Origin: Formicincola oecophyllae
Lineage (GTDB): Bacteria; Pseudomonadota; Alphaproteobacteria; Acetobacterales; Acetobacteraceae
NCBI RefSeq assembly: GCF_006542395.2
Contig: NZ_CP038231.1
Span: forward strand, 1,116,001 to 1,180,000
Direction of reading: 5' to 3'
DNA length: 64,000 nucleotides
Made by a program: the position numbers and the translations under genes. Below, piece after piece: positions 34,158-53,712 of the stretch; positions within the stretch are counted from its first letter, which is position 1, and every line of letters starts with the position of its first letter. The notes beneath the pieces are model-generated. The model ran no database searches and was not told the DNA's origin. It saw nothing but the letters and a program-made list of their open reading frames with translations.

Positions 34158-34355
34158 AGGCACAGCGCCCTTAGCCCAGGCTGCCATGAGCGCAAGGCCC
34201 TGTTGCAGAACGGACCCTTGCCAGGGCAGGGCGCCTGGTTAACATTCTGCCGCAATGGCCTGGCAAACACTGTGCCTGTGTGGGAGGCAGCCCCCGTGTT
34301 GCTGGAGCACGCTGCCCCCTGAACCAAGCACGCCCCTGTGCAGGATGGATCTTTG

Positions 34356-35474
34356 ATGAGCGCTGAAAAATTTAAACATATTCCCCACCCCAACCCCACC
34401 CCGGAAGCCGAACGCCGCAAGCTTTTGGCTGAGGGCAACTTTGGCAAGGTCTTCTCCGACCACATGTTTCTTATGGATTACGACCCAGAGAAGGGTTGGC
34501 ATGACGGACGCCTGGAAGCCCGCCGCCCCTTCGCGCTCGATCCAGCCTCGCTAGTGCTGCATTATGGTCAGGAAATCTTCGAAGGCATGAAGGCCTTCAA
34601 AGGCCCTGATGGCACAGTGACGGTTTTCCGCCCTGAAGCCAACGGCCAGCGCCTGGCCGCTTCAGCGCGGCGCCTGGCGATGCCTGAAATGCCTGTGGAG
34701 ACTTTCGTCAGCGCCATTGACGCCTTGGTGCAGAAAGACAGCGCTTGGGTGCCAGAAGCCGAAGGCCATAGCCTGTACCTGCGCCCCTTTATGATTGCCC
34801 ATGATGCTTTCCTGGGCGTGAAGCCTGCTGAACGCTACCTGTTCGCTGTCATTGCCTCACCAGTGGGCAATTACTTTGCTAAGCCCACTGTGGATGTATG
34901 GGTAACGGAACGTTACACCCGCGCAGCACCGGGCGGCACAGGCGAAGCCAAGTGCGGTGGCAATTATGCTGGCGGCCTGGTTGCCCAGCGCGAGGCCTAC
35001 AGCCAGAAATGCGACCAGGTTCTGTTCCTCGACAGCACGCAGGGGCACTTTGTTGAGGAAATGGGGGGCATGAACGTGATGTTCGTGCGCAAAGACGGTT
35101 CCGTTGTCACCCCTCCGCTTGATGGCACCATCCTGCGTGGCATCACACGCAACAGCTTGCTCACCTTGGGCCGTGACATGGGTCTGAACATGCGTGAGGA
35201 GCCTGTGGATATCAATGAGCTTTTCGAAGCCGCAGCAGCAGGTGATGTGGTTGAGGCCTTCGCTTGTGGCACGGCTGCCGCCGTCTCCCCCATTGGGCGC
35301 CTTAAGCGCACCCCTGGTGAGGGGGACAAGGCAGGGCGCCGCACTGAAGCCGTTTTTGGTGACGGTGCCACCCCTGGTCCCGTGACCATGAAACTCAAGA
35401 AGGCCCTTCTGGATGTGCAGCGTGGGCGCGTTGAGGACAAGCATGGTTGGCGCCACAGCATCATGGTGCAGTGA
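34356..35474 (+). CDS. ilvE: Branched-chain amino acid aminotransferase
   Basis: A PLP fold-IV transaminase of 372 residues that makes Leu, Ile and Val from their keto acids. The catalytic Lys lies in EAKCGGNYAGGL. Other signatures are LHYGQEIFEGMKAFKG, YLRPFMIA, EEMGGMNVMFV and ACGTAAAVSPIG. The length and motifs fit the longer class of BCAT (about 360 residues). The ATG at 34356 has AGGA about 10 nt upstream. It is a single gene, followed by the FNR site of the next operon. Confidence 0.93.
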   Translation: MSAEKFKHIPHPNPTPEAERRKLLAEGNFGKVFSDHMFLMDYDPEKGWHDGRLEARRPFALDPASLVLHYGQEIFEGMKAFKGPDGTVTVFRPEANGQRLAASARRLAMPEMPVETFVSAIDALVQKDSAWVPEAEGHSLYLRPFMIAHDAFLGVKPAERYLFAVIASPVGNYFAKPTVDVWVTERYTRAAPGGTGEAKCGGNYAGGLVAQREAYSQKCDQVLFLDSTQGHFVEEMGGMNVMFVRKDGSVVTPPLDGTILRGITRNSLLTLGRDMGLNMREEPVDINELFEAAAAGDVVEAFACGTAAAVSPIGRLKRTPGEGDKAGRRTEAVFGDGATPGPVTMKLKKALLDVQRGRVEDKHGWRHSIMVQ

Positions 35475-35557
35475 GGGTACCAGGGGGCACTTGATGTGCC
35501 TTGGCGTTGTCAATGGCATGGCGCGCCTTGGCGCTCGTTGCTGAGGCATAGCCACGC

Positions 35558-35571
35558 TTGATCCACATCAA
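35558..35571. promoter_or_regulatory. Perfect FNR/CRP-family box (TTGAT-N4-ATCAA) before the Moco operon
   Basis: TTGATccacATCAA is an exact symmetric match to the FNR consensus. It lies 69 bp before the moeA GTG start. TATTAA at 35613-35618 could be a -10 box, which puts the site near -60.5 (class I position). A start site near 35606 would put it at -41.5 (class II). The site predicts oxygen-responsive control of molybdenum cofactor synthesis. Confidence 0.65.
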
Positions 35572-35639
35572 GTGCTTGAGGGGTCAGCCATCAGAGTCTA
35601 GAGTGCAGCCGTTATTAAAAGACCGGCAAGGGGATTCGG

Positions 35640-36839
35640 GTGGCTGCACCATTGAGTGTTACTGAGGCAGCTGCCCTGGTGGCTGAACACGCAGGGGATT
35701 TTGGCATTGAACGCGTCAGCCTGCTGAAGGCGCCAGGGCGCATTCTGCGTGAAACTATCCATGCTGAGCGTGACCAGCCCCCCTTTGACCGTGTCATGAT
35801 GGATGGCATCGCTTGCCGCTTGGTTGATGTGCGCGCTGAAGCGCTCATGTGCACAGGCACCGTTGCCGCTGGTGCCAAACCATTGCCCCTGGGCCCAACA
35901 GGCACCTGCCTGGCCGTCATGACAGGTGCGGTCATGCCGCAAGGGGCGGAATGCGTCATCCCCGTTGAACAAATTGAGCGCCACGGCAGCCAGGTGCGCG
36001 TTTTACCGCAAGCCAAGGCCGTTCAAGGCCAGCATGTGCATGACCGTGGTTTGGATGCCAAGCAAGGCGACGTGTTGCTTGCAGCGGGGCTGCACCTGGG
36101 TGCGCCAGCGCTAGCTGTGTTGGCTTCCAATGCCAAGGGCAGCGTGTTGGTCAGCCGCAGGCCCCGCGTGGCCATTCTGGCCACAGGCGATGAGCTGGTT
36201 GACGTTGAAGGCCCTATAGAGCCCTGGCAGGTCAGACGTTCCAATGACTGCGCTATTGAGGGCAGCTTGCGTGTGCGGGGCGTGGAGGAGATCGCCGCCA
36301 GTCATGTGCCAGATGATGAACGAGCGCTGGAGCGCAGCTTGGGCCAGGCCTTGGCAGAACGTGATATTGTGCTGCTTAGCGGTGGCGTGTCCATGGGGCA
36401 GTTTGATTATGTGCCCCAGGCCCTGGCCGCCCTAGGGGTGGTGAAGGTGTTCCACCGCGTGGCCCAGAAGCCCGGTGCGCCTTTGTGGTTTGGCATCGGC
36501 CCGCAGGGGCAGCGTGTTTTTGGGCTGCCTGGCAATCCTTTGGCGGTCATGGCGTGCATGGCCCGCTACGTTGGCCCCCTGCTGGCTTTGGCAAGCAAGG
36601 CCCAGGCGCAGCCACAGCTGGTGCACTTGGCTGCGCCTGCGCCGCGCCACGGCAAGCGCACCCTTTTCATGCCAGCCCACCTGCAGCGTGATGGCAGCGT
36701 AATGCCCCGCCCCCAGGACACATCAGGCGATTTCATGCATCTCAGTTCCACAGATGGCATCATTGTGGTGCCTTCACAGCAGGAGGCTGGTGCGGACCCT
36801 GTGCCTGTTGGCGCCACAGTGCCTTTTTATGGTTGGTAG
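35640..36839 (+). CDS. moeA: Molybdopterin molybdenumtransferase MoeA
   Basis: A 399-residue enzyme that inserts molybdate into adenylylated molybdopterin. The conserved blocks are PPFDRVMMDGIA, CLAVMTGAVMPQGAECVIPVEQ, RPRVAILATGDELV, SNDCAIEG, DIVLLSGGVSMGQFDYVPQAL, VFHRVAQKPGAPLWFG and VFGLPGNPLAVM. GTG at 35640 has AAGGGGA about 8 nt upstream. It is the first gene of the Moco operon behind the FNR box and lies 19 nt before moaA. Confidence 0.93.
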   Translation: MAAPLSVTEAAALVAEHAGDFGIERVSLLKAPGRILRETIHAERDQPPFDRVMMDGIACRLVDVRAEALMCTGTVAAGAKPLPLGPTGTCLAVMTGAVMPQGAECVIPVEQIERHGSQVRVLPQAKAVQGQHVHDRGLDAKQGDVLLAAGLHLGAPALAVLASNAKGSVLVSRRPRVAILATGDELVDVEGPIEPWQVRRSNDCAIEGSLRVRGVEEIAASHVPDDERALERSLGQALAERDIVLLSGGVSMGQFDYVPQALAALGVVKVFHRVAQKPGAPLWFGIGPQGQRVFGLPGNPLAVMACMARYVGPLLALASKAQAQPQLVHLAAPAPRHGKRTLFMPAHLQRDGSVMPRPQDTSGDFMHLSSTDGIIVVPSQQEAGADPVPVGATVPFYGW

Positions 36840-36858
36840 CGCCCCGGTGCGCCAAACG

Positions 36859-37917
36859 ATGAACGCAGCGCCACCAGTGCTAGACCAATTGGGGCGGCCG
36901 CTGCGGGACCTGCGGATTTCCGTCATGGACAGGTGCAATTTGCGCTGCCCCTATTGCATGCCTGAGGAGAAGTTTGGCCCTTCCTACCGTTTCCTGCCAC
37001 CAGCTGAGCGGCTGGATTTTGATGAGGTCACGCGCCTGGCGCGTTTGGCTGTCAGCCTGGGTGTGAGCAAAATCCGCCTTACAGGGGGGGAGCCTTTGCT
37101 GCGCCCTCATCTGCCCCAGTTGGTAGGACGCCTGGCAGTGCTGGAGGGGGTGCGGGATCTAGCCTTGACCACCAATGGCGTTTTGCTGGCGCGCCAGGCA
37201 AAGGCCCTGCGGCAAGCTGGGCTAAGCCGGGTGACAGTCAGCCTGGATGCCCTTGATGATGGCGTGTTTGCTGCCATGAGTGGCCACAGGGGGGCAGCTG
37301 CCACGGTGGTGGCTGGCCTGGAGGCCGCGTTGGAGGCTGGTTTCCCTGGTGGGGTAAAGCTGAACAGCGTTGTGCGGCGGGGCGTCAATGAAGGTGAGGT
37401 TGTGAAGCTGGCCCGCTGGGGGCGCGACCACGGTGTGCCTGTGCGCTTCATTGAATACATGGATGCAGGCACCCGCAACGGCTGGAACCGTGCTGAGGTG
37501 GTACCAGCGTTGGAGATAAAGCGCCTTGCCGAACAGCTTGGCCCCCTTGAGCCCCTGGTGCCTGCCTATCGCGGTGAGGTGGCGCGGCGCTGGCGCTATA
37601 AAGACGGGCAGGGCGAGATTGGCTTGATCTCCTCTGTCACCCAGCCATTCTGCAGTGGTTGCACCCGCATGAGGCTGTCATCTGACGGCAAGCTTTATGG
37701 TTGCCTTTTCGCAACCAAGGGGGTTGATGTCCGCGCTTTGCTGCGTGCCCCCACACCTGCGACTGATGAAGCCATTGTGGCTGTGCTTGCGCGTTTCTGG
37801 GGGGCGCGCACTGACCGCTATAGCGAACTGCGGGGCCAAGGGCGCGCGCAGGACCCTCAAACCGCTGATGGCGTTGCAGCGCCTGGGCGCATAGAAATGA
37901 ACTATATTGGAGGATGA
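36859..37917 (+). CDS. moaA: GTP 3',8-cyclase MoaA
   Basis: A radical SAM enzyme of 352 residues that starts molybdopterin synthesis from GTP. The SAM cluster is C26-NLR-C30-PY-C33. TGGEPLLRPHL and VTVSLDALDD follow, and the second cluster lies in FCSGCTRMRLSSDGKLYGCL. The C-terminus ends YIGG, with the GG tail needed for activity. The start is ATG 36859; an ATG at 36829 overlapping moeA is also possible. MoaC, its partner enzyme, is encoded 3 nt later. Confidence 0.96.
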   Translation: MNAAPPVLDQLGRPLRDLRISVMDRCNLRCPYCMPEEKFGPSYRFLPPAERLDFDEVTRLARLAVSLGVSKIRLTGGEPLLRPHLPQLVGRLAVLEGVRDLALTTNGVLLARQAKALRQAGLSRVTVSLDALDDGVFAAMSGHRGAAATVVAGLEAALEAGFPGGVKLNSVVRRGVNEGEVVKLARWGRDHGVPVRFIEYMDAGTRNGWNRAEVVPALEIKRLAEQLGPLEPLVPAYRGEVARRWRYKDGQGEIGLISSVTQPFCSGCTRMRLSSDGKLYGCLFATKGVDVRALLRAPTPATDEAIVAVLARFWGARTDRYSELRGQGRAQDPQTADGVAAPGRIEMNYIGG

Positions 37918-37920
37918 ATC

Positions 37921-38454
37921 ATGACAGCGCCTGAACACCACCACGCCAACAAGGGCACAGCCAGCCTGAGTCATGTGGATAGCGCTGACGGACAACCGAT
38001 GATGGTTGACGTTGGCGCTAAGGCCCCAACCAGGCGCACCGCCACCGCCCAAGGCCGGGTGGCGTTCCCGCCAAAGGTGGCTGCGCAACTACGTTCTGCT
38101 GGCTTTATGACCAAAAAAGGCGCTGTTCTGACGGTGGCACATATTGCGGGCGTCTGCGGCGCCAAGGCCACATCGCAGCTTATTCCGCTGTGCCACCCCC
38201 TAGCGCTGAATGGTTGTGACGTGGCGCTGCACATGGTTGGTGACGATGTCATGATCACGGCCACAGTTTCGTGTGAGGGCAAAACGGGGGTGGAGATGGA
38301 AGCGCTGACGGCGGTTTCCGTGGCGGCCTTGACGGTTTACGACATGTGCAAGGCGTTGAGCCACGACATCGTCATCAGGGAGGTTCAGCTTATGGGTAAA
38401 AAAGGCGGCAAGCGTGATTTCAAGCGTGCTGGCAGCAGCCAGGTTCCCTCATGA
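37921..38454 (+). CDS. moaC: Cyclic pyranopterin monophosphate synthase MoaC
   Basis: A 177-residue enzyme that turns the MoaA product into cPMP. The conserved pieces are MVDVGAKAPTRRTATAQG, AHIAGVCGAKATSQLIPLCH (active-site region), CEGKTGVEMEALTAVSVAAL and VQLMGKKGGKRDF. GGAGG precedes the ATG. The stop overlaps the start of the next gene. Confidence 0.96.
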   Translation: MTAPEHHHANKGTASLSHVDSADGQPMMVDVGAKAPTRRTATAQGRVAFPPKVAAQLRSAGFMTKKGAVLTVAHIAGVCGAKATSQLIPLCHPLALNGCDVALHMVGDDVMITATVSCEGKTGVEMEALTAVSVAALTVYDMCKALSHDIVIREVQLMGKKGGKRDFKRAGSSQVPS

Positions 38455-39383
38455 TGGCCAGCAAAATCAAAGCCATGAAGCTCAACGGCCTTGTCCTCAC
38501 AGGGGGGGAAAGCCGGCGCATGGGGCGCGACAAAGCGCTGCTGGCCTATGGGCCTGAAGGCCACAGCCAGATTGAGCGGGCCATGGCGCTGTTGGCGCCG
38601 CTGGTGAAGGAGAGCTTTCTTTCCGTACGCCCTGGCCAGCAGGATGCTGTGCGCCAGCGCTACCGCCAGATCCCTGACCAGCCTTTGGTGGACAACGCTG
38701 GCAAAACCGTTAGTGGGCCAGCAGCGGGTCTTTTGGCTGCCCATGCCCAAGACCCAGACGCAGCCTGGCTGGTGCTGGCCTGCGACCTGCCCTTGCTGGA
38801 TGAAGCCACCTTGTGCTCCCTGGTGAAGCGTTGGCGAGAAGTGGTGGCCAAGGGCAACCCTGTGGGGTGGACAGCGCTTGCTTACCGCAGCACCCATGAT
38901 GGCCTGCCTGAGCCCTTATGCACACTTTGGACGCCTGAAGCCCTGGCTGCCTTGGGTAACCACGTGGCTGAAGGCCATGTTTGCCCGCGCAAGGCGTTGC
39001 TCAACAGCAAAACGCTGCTGCTGGAGCCTGAAAACCCCCATGCGCTTGACAACGCTAACACAGCTGAGGAACGCGCCCAGGCTGAACGGCGCCTTGAGCG
39101 GCGCCGGGCCGTGCAGGCTGCGCAGCAGGGCGTGGCCCCCACAGTGATGGTCCAGGTTACTTACTTTGCCCAGCTGCGTGACGTGGCTGGCATGAAGGGG
39201 GAAGCCATCACCACAGCGCACCGCACGGCTGGGCCACTTTATGATGAGCTACGCCAGCGCCATGGTTTCCCCTTTGAGTGTCAACAGCTGCGCCTGGCCT
39301 TGAATGATTCATTCGCTGAATGGGACACGCCGCTCAAGCAAGGTGACGTGGTCGTGTTCATCCCGCCTGTCACCGGAGGTTGA
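38451..39383 (+). CDS. MobA-MoaD fusion: molybdenum cofactor guanylyltransferase plus sulfur-carrier domain
   Basis: A 310-residue protein joining two Moco enzymes. Residues about 8-200 are MobA-like: the nucleotide-binding loop LVLTGGESRRMGRDKALL, then SGPAAGLLAAH and VLACDLPLLDEATL, which attaches GMP to the cofactor. A charged linker (AEERAQAERRLERRRAVQ) leads to about 80 C-terminal residues that match MoaD: VTYFAQLRDVAG, LRLALNDSF and a final VVVFIPPVTGG, whose terminal Gly-Gly becomes the thiocarboxylate. No separate moaD is seen in the operon, so this domain probably supplies it. ATG overlaps the moaC stop; moaE follows 5 nt later. Confidence 0.88.
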   Translation: MMASKIKAMKLNGLVLTGGESRRMGRDKALLAYGPEGHSQIERAMALLAPLVKESFLSVRPGQQDAVRQRYRQIPDQPLVDNAGKTVSGPAAGLLAAHAQDPDAAWLVLACDLPLLDEATLCSLVKRWREVVAKGNPVGWTALAYRSTHDGLPEPLCTLWTPEALAALGNHVAEGHVCPRKALLNSKTLLLEPENPHALDNANTAEERAQAERRLERRRAVQAAQQGVAPTVMVQVTYFAQLRDVAGMKGEAITTAHRTAGPLYDELRQRHGFPFECQQLRLALNDSFAEWDTPLKQGDVVVFIPPVTGG

Positions 39384-39388
39384 AGGTC

Positions 39389-39976
39389 ATGGACACCCTA
39401 GCTAAGCCCACCAAGCCGCACCAAGCCGCCCAAGCCAGCGCTACCTCTATAGAAGGGGGGCGCCAGGTGCGCCACTTCATGATTGCCCATGCTGATGTGG
39501 ATGTGGCGGCGTTGCGCGAAAAGCTGCAAGCGCGTTCTGCAGGCGGCTTCTGCACGTTTGAGGGATGGGTGCGTGACCACAATGAAGGCGCTGACGTCAC
39601 AGCCCTTGATTACGAGGTTTATGAGGCCCTAGCCCAAAAAGAGGGTGAGGCCATTTTGGCTGAGGCCTGCGCGCGCTTTCCCGTGACGGGCGTTGCCGCC
39701 ATGCACAGGGACGGCACGCTGGCGGTTGGGGGAATGGCTGTTTGGGTGGGGGCCGCAGCCGCCCACCGCGAAGCTGCCTTTGACGCGTGCCGTTACGTGA
39801 TTGATGAAATCAAGGCGCGCCTGCCTGTGTGGAAACGTGAACATTACGTCAACGCCCCGCCCCAATGGGTGGCGTGCCATCACCGTGGCCAACATGCCCC
39901 CCAAGCGCAGGGTGGCGCGGTGGTGGGTGAAACTGGCGCGCATTCCCAGACATGCCGAGGCCATGACCACGCCTGA
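39389..39976 (+). CDS. moaE: Molybdopterin synthase catalytic subunit MoaE
   Basis: A 195-residue large subunit that transfers sulfur from MoaD to cPMP. Conserved parts are CTFEGWVRDHNEG, LDYEVYEALAQKEG, VWVGAAAAHREAAFDACRYV, and KARLPVWKREHY with the catalytic Lys region. The last 35 residues are His/Gln/Gly-rich and lie beyond the usual C-terminus. GGAGG lies about 11 nt before the ATG. It is the last recognised gene of the Moco operon. No moeB or mog is nearby. Confidence 0.93.
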   Translation: MDTLAKPTKPHQAAQASATSIEGGRQVRHFMIAHADVDVAALREKLQARSAGGFCTFEGWVRDHNEGADVTALDYEVYEALAQKEGEAILAEACARFPVTGVAAMHRDGTLAVGGMAVWVGAAAAHREAAFDACRYVIDEIKARLPVWKREHYVNAPPQWVACHHRGQHAPQAQGGAVVGETGAHSQTCRGHDHA

Positions 39977-40015
39977 GACTGCAGCTGCGCGACATGCCCT
40001 GTGAACCTTGAAGGT

Positions 40016-40046
40016 AACCGGCCCTTGAACTGTAAACAGGCCGGCA
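40016..40046 (+). terminator. Hairpin after moaE, possible weak terminator
   Basis: A 6-bp GC-only stem (CCGGCC / GGCCGG) encloses a 15-nt loop, without a T-tract. Confidence 0.3.
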
Positions 40047-40257
40047 GGCTGCTGCTTGGTTCCCAAGGCGTGACGTTTGCTTCCCCGGTCCTGTAAGTTG
40101 AATTGGCGCTCAGACCAATCCCTGTGGGGGCACGGCTGGGCGCTTCATTCAACACAAAGCCAGCCCGTTCGGCTGCATTGTTCAAGCAGGGAGGCGTCTT
40201 CAATTGTTCCTTCAACAGGTTGTGCTGCCCCTTCGGGGCCAGCGCAGATGCAGGGCC

Positions 40258-42498
40258 ATGCCTGGATTCAGGCAGCACCTGCAAGCGCCAACCCATGCCT
40301 TCAAGGCCATGGCGCTGGGGGGGATTGTGTGCGCTTTCGCGCAAGGCACGCCCAGTACCCAGGCCAGGGCGCCTGAGCTTTCATCAAGCACCAGCCCCTC
40401 GAAAACCTATTTGAAAGCCCAGCCCAAGCCCCAGCATTTGGTTATCCATGGGGTGCGTGGCCAAGCGGACATCCTGGGTGCGGATGCCCACTACATGGCC
40501 CAATCAGCTGATCTGGGCCCCCTTGGCGCCCAGTCCATCCTCAATGAACCGTTCACTGTCGATGAGGTGCGCCGTGACGTCCTGCTGAACCAGCAGGTTC
40601 GCAACATCAATGACACAGCCAAGTTCATGCCTTCCGTCCAGCTGGAGGAACGCGGCGACCCCAACATATCGCGCCCCCAGTCGCGCGGGTTTGAAAGCGA
40701 CGTCATCAACAATTCCCGCATGGACGGGCTGAACGTCCTCACCACCACCCCTTACGCTGCGGAGCAATTCGACCACCTGACCGTGCTGGAAGGTTTGGCT
40801 GGCGCCCTTTACGGCCCCCAAAATCCAGCAGGCACGTTCAACTACGTTCTCAAGCGCCCAACGGACAAGCCTATGGCTGTGTTTAACTTCGGCGCTGATT
40901 CCAATGGCGCCCCTTTGGAAAGCGGCGACTTCTCAGGACGTTATGGCCCTGTGGGGGCGCGGTTGAACCTTCTGAACCAAAATGGGCAAAGCTACGTTGG
41001 CGGCTCCTCCCTCAGGCGTGACATGGTGAGTGGGGACTTCGACATCCACTTGGGGCGCGACACCACCCTTTATGTCGATGGCAGCGCTTACAGCAACGCT
41101 TGGCGTGGGCTGCCAGGGGCGTTCACTTTTAAGTCAGGATTGGCGCTGCCTAAGGCGCCTGATATCGCACGGCGCGGCTATGGGCAACGGCAGGGCGGCT
41201 ACAGCACCTTAACTGAGACTGGCCTGGCCCGGTTGGAGCACCGCTTCAACGATGATTGGAGCCTCCGTCTGGGGGGACTTTACCAAAACGCCGCGCGTGA
41301 CGTCTTCACCCCCAACAACCAGATCATCAATAACCGTGGTGATTACACCCAAACCATTGCAGCTGCCAGCACAGCCAATGACTTCGCCGCCTGGAGCAAC
41401 TTCGCCTACCTCAATGGCAAGGTGCGGACAGGCTTTGTGCGGCATGAGCTGGTTTTGGGCTCAAACGGCTATGACCTGGGCAATTACAACCCCCTTTGGG
41501 CGCAAAGCTACACGTTGGGCACAACCAATATCAGCAATCCCAAGGTGTGGGGCGGGACGCGGCCGCGCATGGGCGGGCGCTATCATTCAGCCAATACCCA
41601 GGTGCAGGCGCTTTTAGCTGGCGACACCATCCATTTGGGCCGGCAAGTTACCATCATGGGGATGTTTTCCTGGTCGTGGCTTTCAGTCCAGAACTGGAAT
41701 AGACAATCACGCTTGACCAGCGCCTACAGACGCGATGGCGCCTTTTCACCCACGGTGACGGCGGAATACAAACCTCTTGATGACGTCACGGCCTATTTCA
41801 ACTGGGGCCGCTCCATTCAGCCTGGGCAGTTAGCGCCCACCAACAGCACCAACCAAGGCAGCGTCATGCCCCCCATGCGTTCGGAACAATATGAGGTGGG
41901 GGCGAAATGGCGCCTCAATGACGATTTGATGCTGCGCGCTGATGGTTTTGTGATGTCGCGCCCTTATGCGTTCGTTGACCCTGCCACCATGACCTATGGG
42001 CAGTTCGGCAAGCAGCGCAACTATGGTGTTGAGTTCATGATTTCAGGCCATGTGACCAAGCGCCTGGCCATCATGGCGGGCATGACATGGCTGGACGCCC
42101 AGAATGGCCGCACAGCCAGCGCGCTGACGTCCCACAAGCAAGTGGTGGGGGTGCCGCCTATCGCAGCCAACATCTTGCTGGACTACACTTTGCCGTTGGA
42201 GGGGACCATGCTGCGCGGCGCGGCGCTGACGGCCAATTTCCACTATACGGGCCGCCGTGCTGCTGACGTCTACAACAAGGCGTTCGCAGCCGCTTACGCC
42301 ACGCTTGACCTAGGGGCACGCTACGCAACGGAAATCTGCCACCAGCCGCTGGTGTGGCGTTTCCAAGTCAACAATGTGACGGGGGAACGTTACTGGGCTT
42401 CCGTTTTTCCCAACAGCCAGGCAGGCGGCAGCGGCAACAGCGTGGCCATGGCCGGCTTGCCGCGCACTTTCCAAGGCACAGTGAGCGTGGCGTTTTGA
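40258..42498 (+). CDS. TonB-dependent siderophore receptor
   Basis: About 746 residues. It has an N-terminal signal segment (MALGGIVCAFAQG), a plug domain (LLNQQVRNINDTAKFMPSVQ, PQSRGFESDVINNSRMDGLN, FDHLTVLEGLAGALYGPQNP, GTFNYVLKRPT) and a barrel of repeated amphipathic strands that ends with Phe (QGTVSVAF), as outer-membrane proteins do. The family imports ferric siderophores with TonB energy. I see no Fur box in the upstream 280 bp. ATG at 40258 is chosen over TTG 40204 because it gives a normal signal peptide with AGGG upstream. It may work with the orphan binding protein at 4116, but that is speculation. Confidence 0.88.
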   Translation: MPGFRQHLQAPTHAFKAMALGGIVCAFAQGTPSTQARAPELSSSTSPSKTYLKAQPKPQHLVIHGVRGQADILGADAHYMAQSADLGPLGAQSILNEPFTVDEVRRDVLLNQQVRNINDTAKFMPSVQLEERGDPNISRPQSRGFESDVINNSRMDGLNVLTTTPYAAEQFDHLTVLEGLAGALYGPQNPAGTFNYVLKRPTDKPMAVFNFGADSNGAPLESGDFSGRYGPVGARLNLLNQNGQSYVGGSSLRRDMVSGDFDIHLGRDTTLYVDGSAYSNAWRGLPGAFTFKSGLALPKAPDIARRGYGQRQGGYSTLTETGLARLEHRFNDDWSLRLGGLYQNAARDVFTPNNQIINNRGDYTQTIAAASTANDFAAWSNFAYLNGKVRTGFVRHELVLGSNGYDLGNYNPLWAQSYTLGTTNISNPKVWGGTRPRMGGRYHSANTQVQALLAGDTIHLGRQVTIMGMFSWSWLSVQNWNRQSRLTSAYRRDGAFSPTVTAEYKPLDDVTAYFNWGRSIQPGQLAPTNSTNQGSVMPPMRSEQYEVGAKWRLNDDLMLRADGFVMSRPYAFVDPATMTYGQFGKQRNYGVEFMISGHVTKRLAIMAGMTWLDAQNGRTASALTSHKQVVGVPPIAANILLDYTLPLEGTMLRGAALTANFHYTGRRAADVYNKAFAAAYATLDLGARYATEICHQPLVWRFQVNNVTGERYWASVFPNSQAGGSGNSVAMAGLPRTFQGTVSVAF

Positions 42499-53407: not shown

Positions 53408-53712
53408 GTTAGCGTGCCTTTGGCCAGGGAACTGGCCTGCATGCTATTGACGCGGAGGCCGCGCGGCCACACATTCTGGGTATCATTCTGTCACGTCAAG
53501 ACAGGCACCATGATTTCCCCAGCCCGCGGCTGGGCGCCTGGTGGCTTAGGGCTGTGGCCAAGGGGGCAAGCGCTATAGTAGTGCCCCCGCCAGGTCAGCG
53601 CTGAAGGGCCCAGGGCTTCTGCCGCGTTGCCTGCTGTGGTGAAATGGTGCAGTTTCCCGCCGTCAGCCTGTACGACTGGAACAACAAATAAACTGGGAGG
53701 CCCTGCCGGACC
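53408..53712. other. Divergent intergenic region, no gene seen
   Basis: About 305 bp between the glycosyltransferase gene and the co-chaperone gene. It includes a 7-bp hairpin (CCCAGCC-CGC-GGCTGGG) at about 53519-53535. I cannot pick out a heat-shock promoter with confidence. Confidence 0.4.

Follow-up and report, generated by a model that had tools for sequence, protein, structure and literature searches.

Does a regulator of the FNR/FixK type control the supply of molybdenum cofactor (Moco) in the acetic acid bacterium Formicincola oecophyllae? The question arises from a locus in a 64,000-nucleotide (nt) stretch of its genome (contig NZ_CP038231.1, positions 1,116,001 to 1,180,000, forward strand; hereafter the window), in which a TTGAT-N4-ATCAA dyad is present in the promoter region of a Moco operon, moeA-moaA-moaC-mobA::moaD-moaE. 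Judging from the sequence, we estimate at roughly 0.6 the probability that this dyad is a real, functional site of the single FNR/FixK-type regulator of the genome. We are more reserved about a true oxygen response of the operon, a proposal that we keep tentative because the cluster ligands of the regulator are rearranged.

An earlier, sequence-only reading of the locus had described an exact match to the FNR consensus 69 bp before moeA. The exact match was confirmed and the box does lie just ahead of the gene, but the measured spacing is 68 nt up to the GTG start at 35640, or 82 nt when counted from the start of the box. The window holds this one exact copy, against 0.02 expected from dinucleotide shuffles (2 of 100 shuffles contained one). 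If one mismatch is allowed, the count in the window is at chance level (0.95 expected) and the moeA site is the sole match. Its weight-matrix score equals the median of the 31 distinct training boxes, which were taken from the fnr and narG promoters of relatives (two of them from further Crp/Fnr genes examined separately) and score at least 18.5 bits, and the runner-up position in the window reaches 10.9 bits; as the training boxes were picked for already having at most one mismatch, such scores cannot count as independent of it being the consensus that selected them.

Two profile searches of the genome identified one Crp/Fnr regulator over the cut-offs, at C1:992.2-993.07 kb. A second match to the cyclic nucleotide monophosphate (cNMP)-binding domain lies in an 894-residue frame without a match to the Crp-type helix-turn-helix (HTH), and a second HTH match, on contig C3, is below the cut-off. 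The regulator combines the cNMP-binding fold with a Crp HTH carrying ETVSR, an ExxSR-type recognition helix, and a dyad precedes its own gene, so that it has the DNA-binding features of the FNR/FixK type. For an alignment we used relatives from 29 family genomes, those scoring best among the 171 in which a match was found; one (L238) was not aligned, leaving 28, several of which share a genus. The ETVSR helix and the central Cys residue are conserved in this alignment. The dyad is very likely the box used by this regulator family, because in 27 of the 28 relatives it stands ahead of fnr with no more than one mismatch (16 exact), and because it occurs as an exact copy before fnr in G069, the genome closest by MoeA score among the matches listed, and as TTGATATAAGTCAA before fnr in F. 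oecophyllae. It is also found before narG. Among the best 29 of 65 other genomes with a narG match, 12 have the dyad less than 150 nt ahead of the gene and 4 have it farther off, about 1,480 nt upstream (16/29 in total); in those 12, the distance from box start to gene start is 76-147 nt, which brackets the value at moeA. The other 13 narG loci have no dyad within 1,500 nt, two of them (L248 and L271) being out of frame and hence weak negatives.

As for the enzymes that the cofactor would serve, the genome encodes two molybdopterin oxidoreductases, NarG (narK-narGHJI) and FdnG (fdnGHI-fdhE). The narG, narH, narJ and narI genes are adjacent and their products score over the cut-offs (TIGR01580, TIGR01660, TIGR00684 and TIGR00351), as do the alpha, beta and gamma subunits of formate dehydrogenase-N and FdhE (TIGR01553, TIGR01582, TIGR01583 and TIGR01562); NarK is just under its own NCBIfam cut-off. 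The genome has no Mo enzymes of the xanthine-dehydrogenase or sulfite-oxidase families, other Mo/W families and molybdate transport not having been searched. NarG and Fdn are members of the enzyme family whose cofactor is the guanine-dinucleotide form, in keeping with the presence of mobA in the operon. A narG gene is not rare in the family, being found in 66 of 249 genomes and 44 of 102 genera, F. oecophyllae included. G069 has a single molybdopterin oxidoreductase (fdn), no narG and two matches to the xanthine-dehydrogenase family. G029 is an Acetobacteraceae genome of 1.9 Mb that has no FNR match; it encodes an Fdh-alpha formate dehydrogenase beside NuoB/NuoD-like subunits (L211, C1:750000-765000), an arrangement that resembles a formate hydrogenlyase cluster.

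We propose that the FNR/FixK-type regulator, when active, would most likely activate the moe/moa operon with the sole MoeA gene found (a single match in the genome at E<=1e-20). The MobA of the operon would make the guanine-dinucleotide form of the cofactor and thereby feed formate dehydrogenase-N and the respiratory nitrate reductase NarGHI, forming a chain from formate via quinone to nitrate that might be used at low oxygen.

Several findings weigh against a functional site before moeA. The whole genome (1.96 Mb, three contigs) contains 3 exact dyads and 41 places with at most one mismatch; 39 of the 41 fall within open reading frames (ORFs), as delimited by a simple caller that takes the longest frame of at least 80 residues and leaves 9.9% of the window outside ORFs. 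The remaining two are the moeA and fnr boxes, about 4.1 being expected of 41, and there is thus no enrichment of sites outside ORFs. The argument therefore lies in how exact the match is, where it sits and which two genes are concerned, and does not draw on site counts. Neither are the respiratory operons preceded by the box: the narK upstream region has none at up to 3 mismatches (best score 0.4 bits), and that of fdn holds two 3-mismatch sites at best (4.4 bits). The sequence-only reading had looked to Mo enzymes with the same box; the enzymes are there and are respiratory, but the box is not. It had also made conservation in related strains a touchstone, and in related genera the site before moeA is not conserved. 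Among nine acetic-clade moeA loci, a single 1-mismatch site was found (at -283), the others having none at up to one mismatch within 400 nt; that same genome is the only one of 29 relatives with a box within 400 nt of moeA, and five further relative loci have a 1-mismatch site farther away (-712 to -1099). A set of 39 moe-operon loci from named genomes, namely those of 80 loci in which moaA follows moeA, likewise has no box at up to one mismatch within 400 nt (one is from Acetobacteraceae, KSS8; L070 qualifies and was left out; L053 offers only 306 nt upstream). No congener is among the matches listed in these comparisons, and a genus-restricted search was not made. Last, a consensus scan of the ilvE-moeA gap detected no terminator ahead of moeA, and the sensor motif of the regulator is altered, as set out below.

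These findings raise the question of whether the dyad is a chance or relic site without effect, moeA being expressed constitutively from a weak promoter of its own or by read-through from ilvE. Such read-through is possible because no terminator was found, and in G029 the ilvE-moeA gap is only about 51 nt. Both other exact dyads of the genome are intragenic and presumably due to chance. However, an exact match at a promoter position is rarely expected in a stretch of this size, the other site outside ORFs precedes fnr itself, and the genes downstream serve nitrate and formate respiration, a classic theme of FNR; we therefore regard a site without effect as unlikely. The scores of the sites in the genome are of interest here. 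Those reaching 18.5 bits among the 41 are moeA (21.6), fnr (21.1), 121447 (20.4), C3:403 (19.5) and 1910741 (18.7), the last three all within ORFs, and the moeA box is the only exact dyad outside called ORFs. Two sites that were called intra-ORF could be promoter sites, each scoring below every training box: the one at 1465348 (15.2 bits) lies 92 nt ahead of a gene of the amino-acid-kinase family, and the one at 53513 (12.1 bits) lies 85 nt ahead of a gene with no Pfam match. The looser pattern TTGA-N6-TCAA has 22 copies in the genome.

The consensus scan revealed no sigma-70-like site in the gap either. FNR activates from a class II position at -41.5, and positions of -60.5 or -63.5 are near class I. 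Three -10-like hexamers, none of them decisive, would set the centre of the box at -46.5 (first hexamer), -60.5 or -63.5. The first choice departs from class II, which is one of two points in favour of a repressor site that would lower Moco synthesis when the regulator is active; the other is that the introduction of PMC10845959 reports repression of moeAB by FNR in E. coli, though its wording is looser elsewhere, where moeA is activated by ArcA 'in addition to FNR'. The two other hexamers fit activation, however, the distance from box to gene start is similar at narG of relatives, and it makes little sense to produce less Moco when NarG and Fdn are needed. Repression thus appears improbable, and we retain activation as the more plausible outcome of binding.

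Part of the box also belongs to an inverted repeat with perfect arms of 12 nt (Table 1). The 3' arm takes in the right half of the dyad, and its counterpart, which holds a lone TTGAT half-site, sits 65 nt upstream. Of 400 shuffles, 1 had arms of this length, as did 2 of 387 window tiles, this same region being one of the two. One might then see the dyad as arising incidentally from a structure in the RNA or DNA. Yet the left half of the dyad, TTGAT at 35558-35562, lies outside the repeat, which accounts neither for it nor for the spacing, while the overall fold of the region is no better than that of shuffles (z = -0.92) and no Rfam model matches at the site. A structural origin of the dyad seems very improbable in our view.

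The regulator itself raises a further issue. A search for an FNR/FixK homologue with a [4Fe-4S] Cys set had been suggested; the genome does have one homologue, with an FNR-type helix and a dyad before its own gene, but the N-terminal C-x2-C-x7-C motif present in 28/28 aligned relatives is altered to CC-x5-C. The stretch reads PCLGKVGFDCCAGRLRC, and when its AGR residues are aligned with those of the relatives, two residues are lost from each Cys interval. The central Cys is kept and a further Cys lies eight residues ahead of the CC pair, so that four N-terminal Cys residues and the central one remain. The motif is intact in the regulator of G069. Of nine further Crp/Fnr proteins from eight genomes, 7 have it; it is absent from L282, a distant second paralogue in G048, and from L281, a truncated copy in G173. 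The latter fnr lacks the sensor domain (172-residue frame), yet it has an exact box upstream. A frameshift behind the odd N-terminus of the F. oecophyllae regulator was considered and is unsupported, as neither of the other two frames holds C-x2-C-x7-C joined to family-like sequence.

Given this motif, the regulator might bind the box and nevertheless be FixK-like, without oxygen sensing through an N-terminal [4Fe-4S] cluster, and the operon would then follow the level of an autoregulated regulator instead of responding directly to oxygen. This possibility overlaps with our preferred reading, since the site would be functional in both. Besides the altered Cys spacing, sequence comparison ranks FixK2 first among solved structures (4i2o, E 7.5e-29), with FNR behind it (5cvr, 1e-16), and the top NCBIfam match is FixK of Caulobacter, below its cut-off. 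On the other hand, the remaining Cys residues are enough ligands for an oddly spaced cluster, and the regulator still has its HTH as well as a box ahead of its own gene. We consider a FixK-like regulator somewhat unlikely. Of the oxygen-linked Moco supply proposed by the sequence-only reading, the FNR site before the operon stands, whereas the oxygen link can be called plausible only, as the motif of the regulator is altered. A bolder and rather doubtful scenario is that genome reduction has left the FNR regulon with two near-perfect boxes, those of the fnr and Moco promoters, the narG box of many relatives being missing. The regulator with its contracted Cys spacing might then gate formate and nitrate respiration by rationing the cofactor rather than by making the enzymes.

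Table 1. Features of the Moco operon and of the region upstream of it (coordinates of the window)
Feature	Coordinates	Strand	Basis
ilvE, branched-chain aminotransferase, upstream neighbour	34338..35474	+	profile matches, synteny
ilvE-moeA intergenic region, 165 nt, holds the box	35475..35639	+	sequence
Inverted repeat, 5' arm GCACTTGATGTG	35487..35498	.	repeat search
FNR/FixK-type dyad TTGATCCACATCAA	35558..35571	.	exact match; weight matrix 21.6 bits
Inverted repeat, 3' arm CACATCAAGTGC	35564..35575	.	repeat search
moeA, molybdopterin molybdotransferase, 399 residues, GTG start	35640..36839	+	Pfam, NCBIfam
moaA, GTP 3',8-cyclase	36859..37917	+	TIGR02666, 358.9 bits
moaC, cyclic pyranopterin monophosphate synthase	37921..38454	+	TIGR00581, PF01967
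mobA::moaD fusion, 310 residues	38451..39383	+	PF12804 and PF02597 over cut-off
moaE, molybdopterin synthase large subunit	39389..39976	+	PF02391

The five genes of the operon are tightly packed, as had been noted, with gaps of 19 nt (moeA-moaA), 3 nt (moaA-moaC) and 5 nt (mobA::moaD-moaE) and an overlap of 4 nt between moaC and mobA. For moaA the ATG at 36859 was picked, and in-frame starts exist further upstream. All five proteins have Pfam domains over cut-off. MoaA and MoaC pass the NCBIfam equivalog cut-offs; MoeA, MobA, MoaD and MoaE match their own equivalog models, but below the curated cut-offs. The mobA::moaD product consists of a MobA-like nucleoside triphosphate-transferase domain followed by a MoaD/ThiS domain with a Gly-Gly end. 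The two genes form one ORF here and are separate in 13/13 relatives checked; a true fusion and a lost stop codon are not distinguished. No covariance-model match to the Moco riboswitch (MOCO RNA motif) was found in Rfam at E<=1 in 35000-40500, and the prion-pseudoknot and mir-3130 matches that were obtained are under their gathering scores and within genes.

The order of ilvE and the moe genes is common to G029 and to G069, with about 2 kb between them in the latter. There, MocA-like and XdhC-like genes, both below the NCBIfam cut-offs, lie between ilvE and moeA (L133:1328-3102) and match the xanthine-dehydrogenase-family enzymes of G069; F. oecophyllae has neither those genes at this place nor the enzymes. 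The gene after moaE (40204-42498) encodes a TonB-dependent siderophore receptor, as it does in G069 (66% identity). That the operon entered F. oecophyllae by a recent horizontal transfer is unsupported, as MoeA groups with those of G069 and G029 (support 0.936, midpoint-rooted). MoeA of the acetic-clade Acetobacteraceae branches with Lysobacterales (joint clade support 0.94, midpoint-rooted), apart from the eight other Acetobacteraceae rows, which suggests an old transfer between classes. Elsewhere, a CRISPR-like (clustered regularly interspaced short palindromic repeats) array of 5 repeats with a 60-nt period was observed downstream of a valS-like ORF (L010:8856-9132; G000:C1 ~1911855-1912131). 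We take its repeat to resemble those of type I-F.

FNR boxes before Moco genes are already known, and the operon described here is a further case, in which the sensor region of the regulator is unusual. Activation of moaABCDE by FNR in E. coli, on which the sequence-only reading had drawn, is indeed stated in PMC10845959, and FNR sites ahead of moaABCDE are listed for several gammaproteobacteria in PMC1805755. The E. coli system and the present one share an FNR-type site before a Moco operon and a tie to anaerobic respiratory molybdoenzymes (PMC10845959, PMC1805755). Unlike in E. coli, the gene order here is moeA-moaA-moaC-mobA::moaD-moaE, there is no Moco riboswitch match, and the Cys motif of the regulator is altered. 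A parallel is found in another Alphaproteobacterium with nitrate respiration, Sphingopyxis granuli TFA, whose narUGHJI-nifM-moaADEBC-moeA genes are reported to be under Fnr, with an Fnr box directly upstream of moeA (PMC7713065). In that strain, however, a single operon comprises nar together with moa/moe, and three Fnr boxes precede narU (PMC7713065), whereas the nar genes of F. oecophyllae are elsewhere and boxless. FNR-type regulators had been said to occur in acetic acid bacteria, and GoxR of Gluconobacter oxydans is such a case, in a bacterium without a true CRP (PMC9429829). GoxR is stated there to be an iron-sulfur protein, unlike the F. oecophyllae regulator with its altered cluster motif. 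The insect-associated acetic acid bacteria of the genus Commensalibacter also have a dissimilatory nitrate reductase, and certain strains can use nitrate to grow without oxygen; the main text of PMC10149009, which describes them, names neither molybdenum nor an fnr regulator. The moeA-moaA-moaC-mobA-moaD-moaE operons of Dyella and Rhodanobacter have the same gene order, and most acetic-clade MoeA rows branch with these Gammaproteobacteria, but mobA and moaD are separate where checked and no box at up to one mismatch is present within 400 nt. In the literature searched, which mostly leaves out subscription papers, we came across no acetic acid bacterium described as having an FNR site ahead of its Moco operon.

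The locus connects the Moco genes with one FNR-type regulator and with a respiratory chain from formate to nitrate in a 2-Mb acetic acid bacterium from a group usually deemed strictly aerobic. What most deserves attention is that the FNR sensor is rearranged and that fnr and the cofactor operon alone have near-perfect boxes in their promoters, the enzyme operons having none. With its altered Cys motif, this otherwise intact FNR provides a natural variant with which to ask which cluster ligands oxygen sensing needs. More generally, F. oecophyllae poses a sharp question, namely whether cofactor supply alone can carry the regulation of anaerobic respiration.

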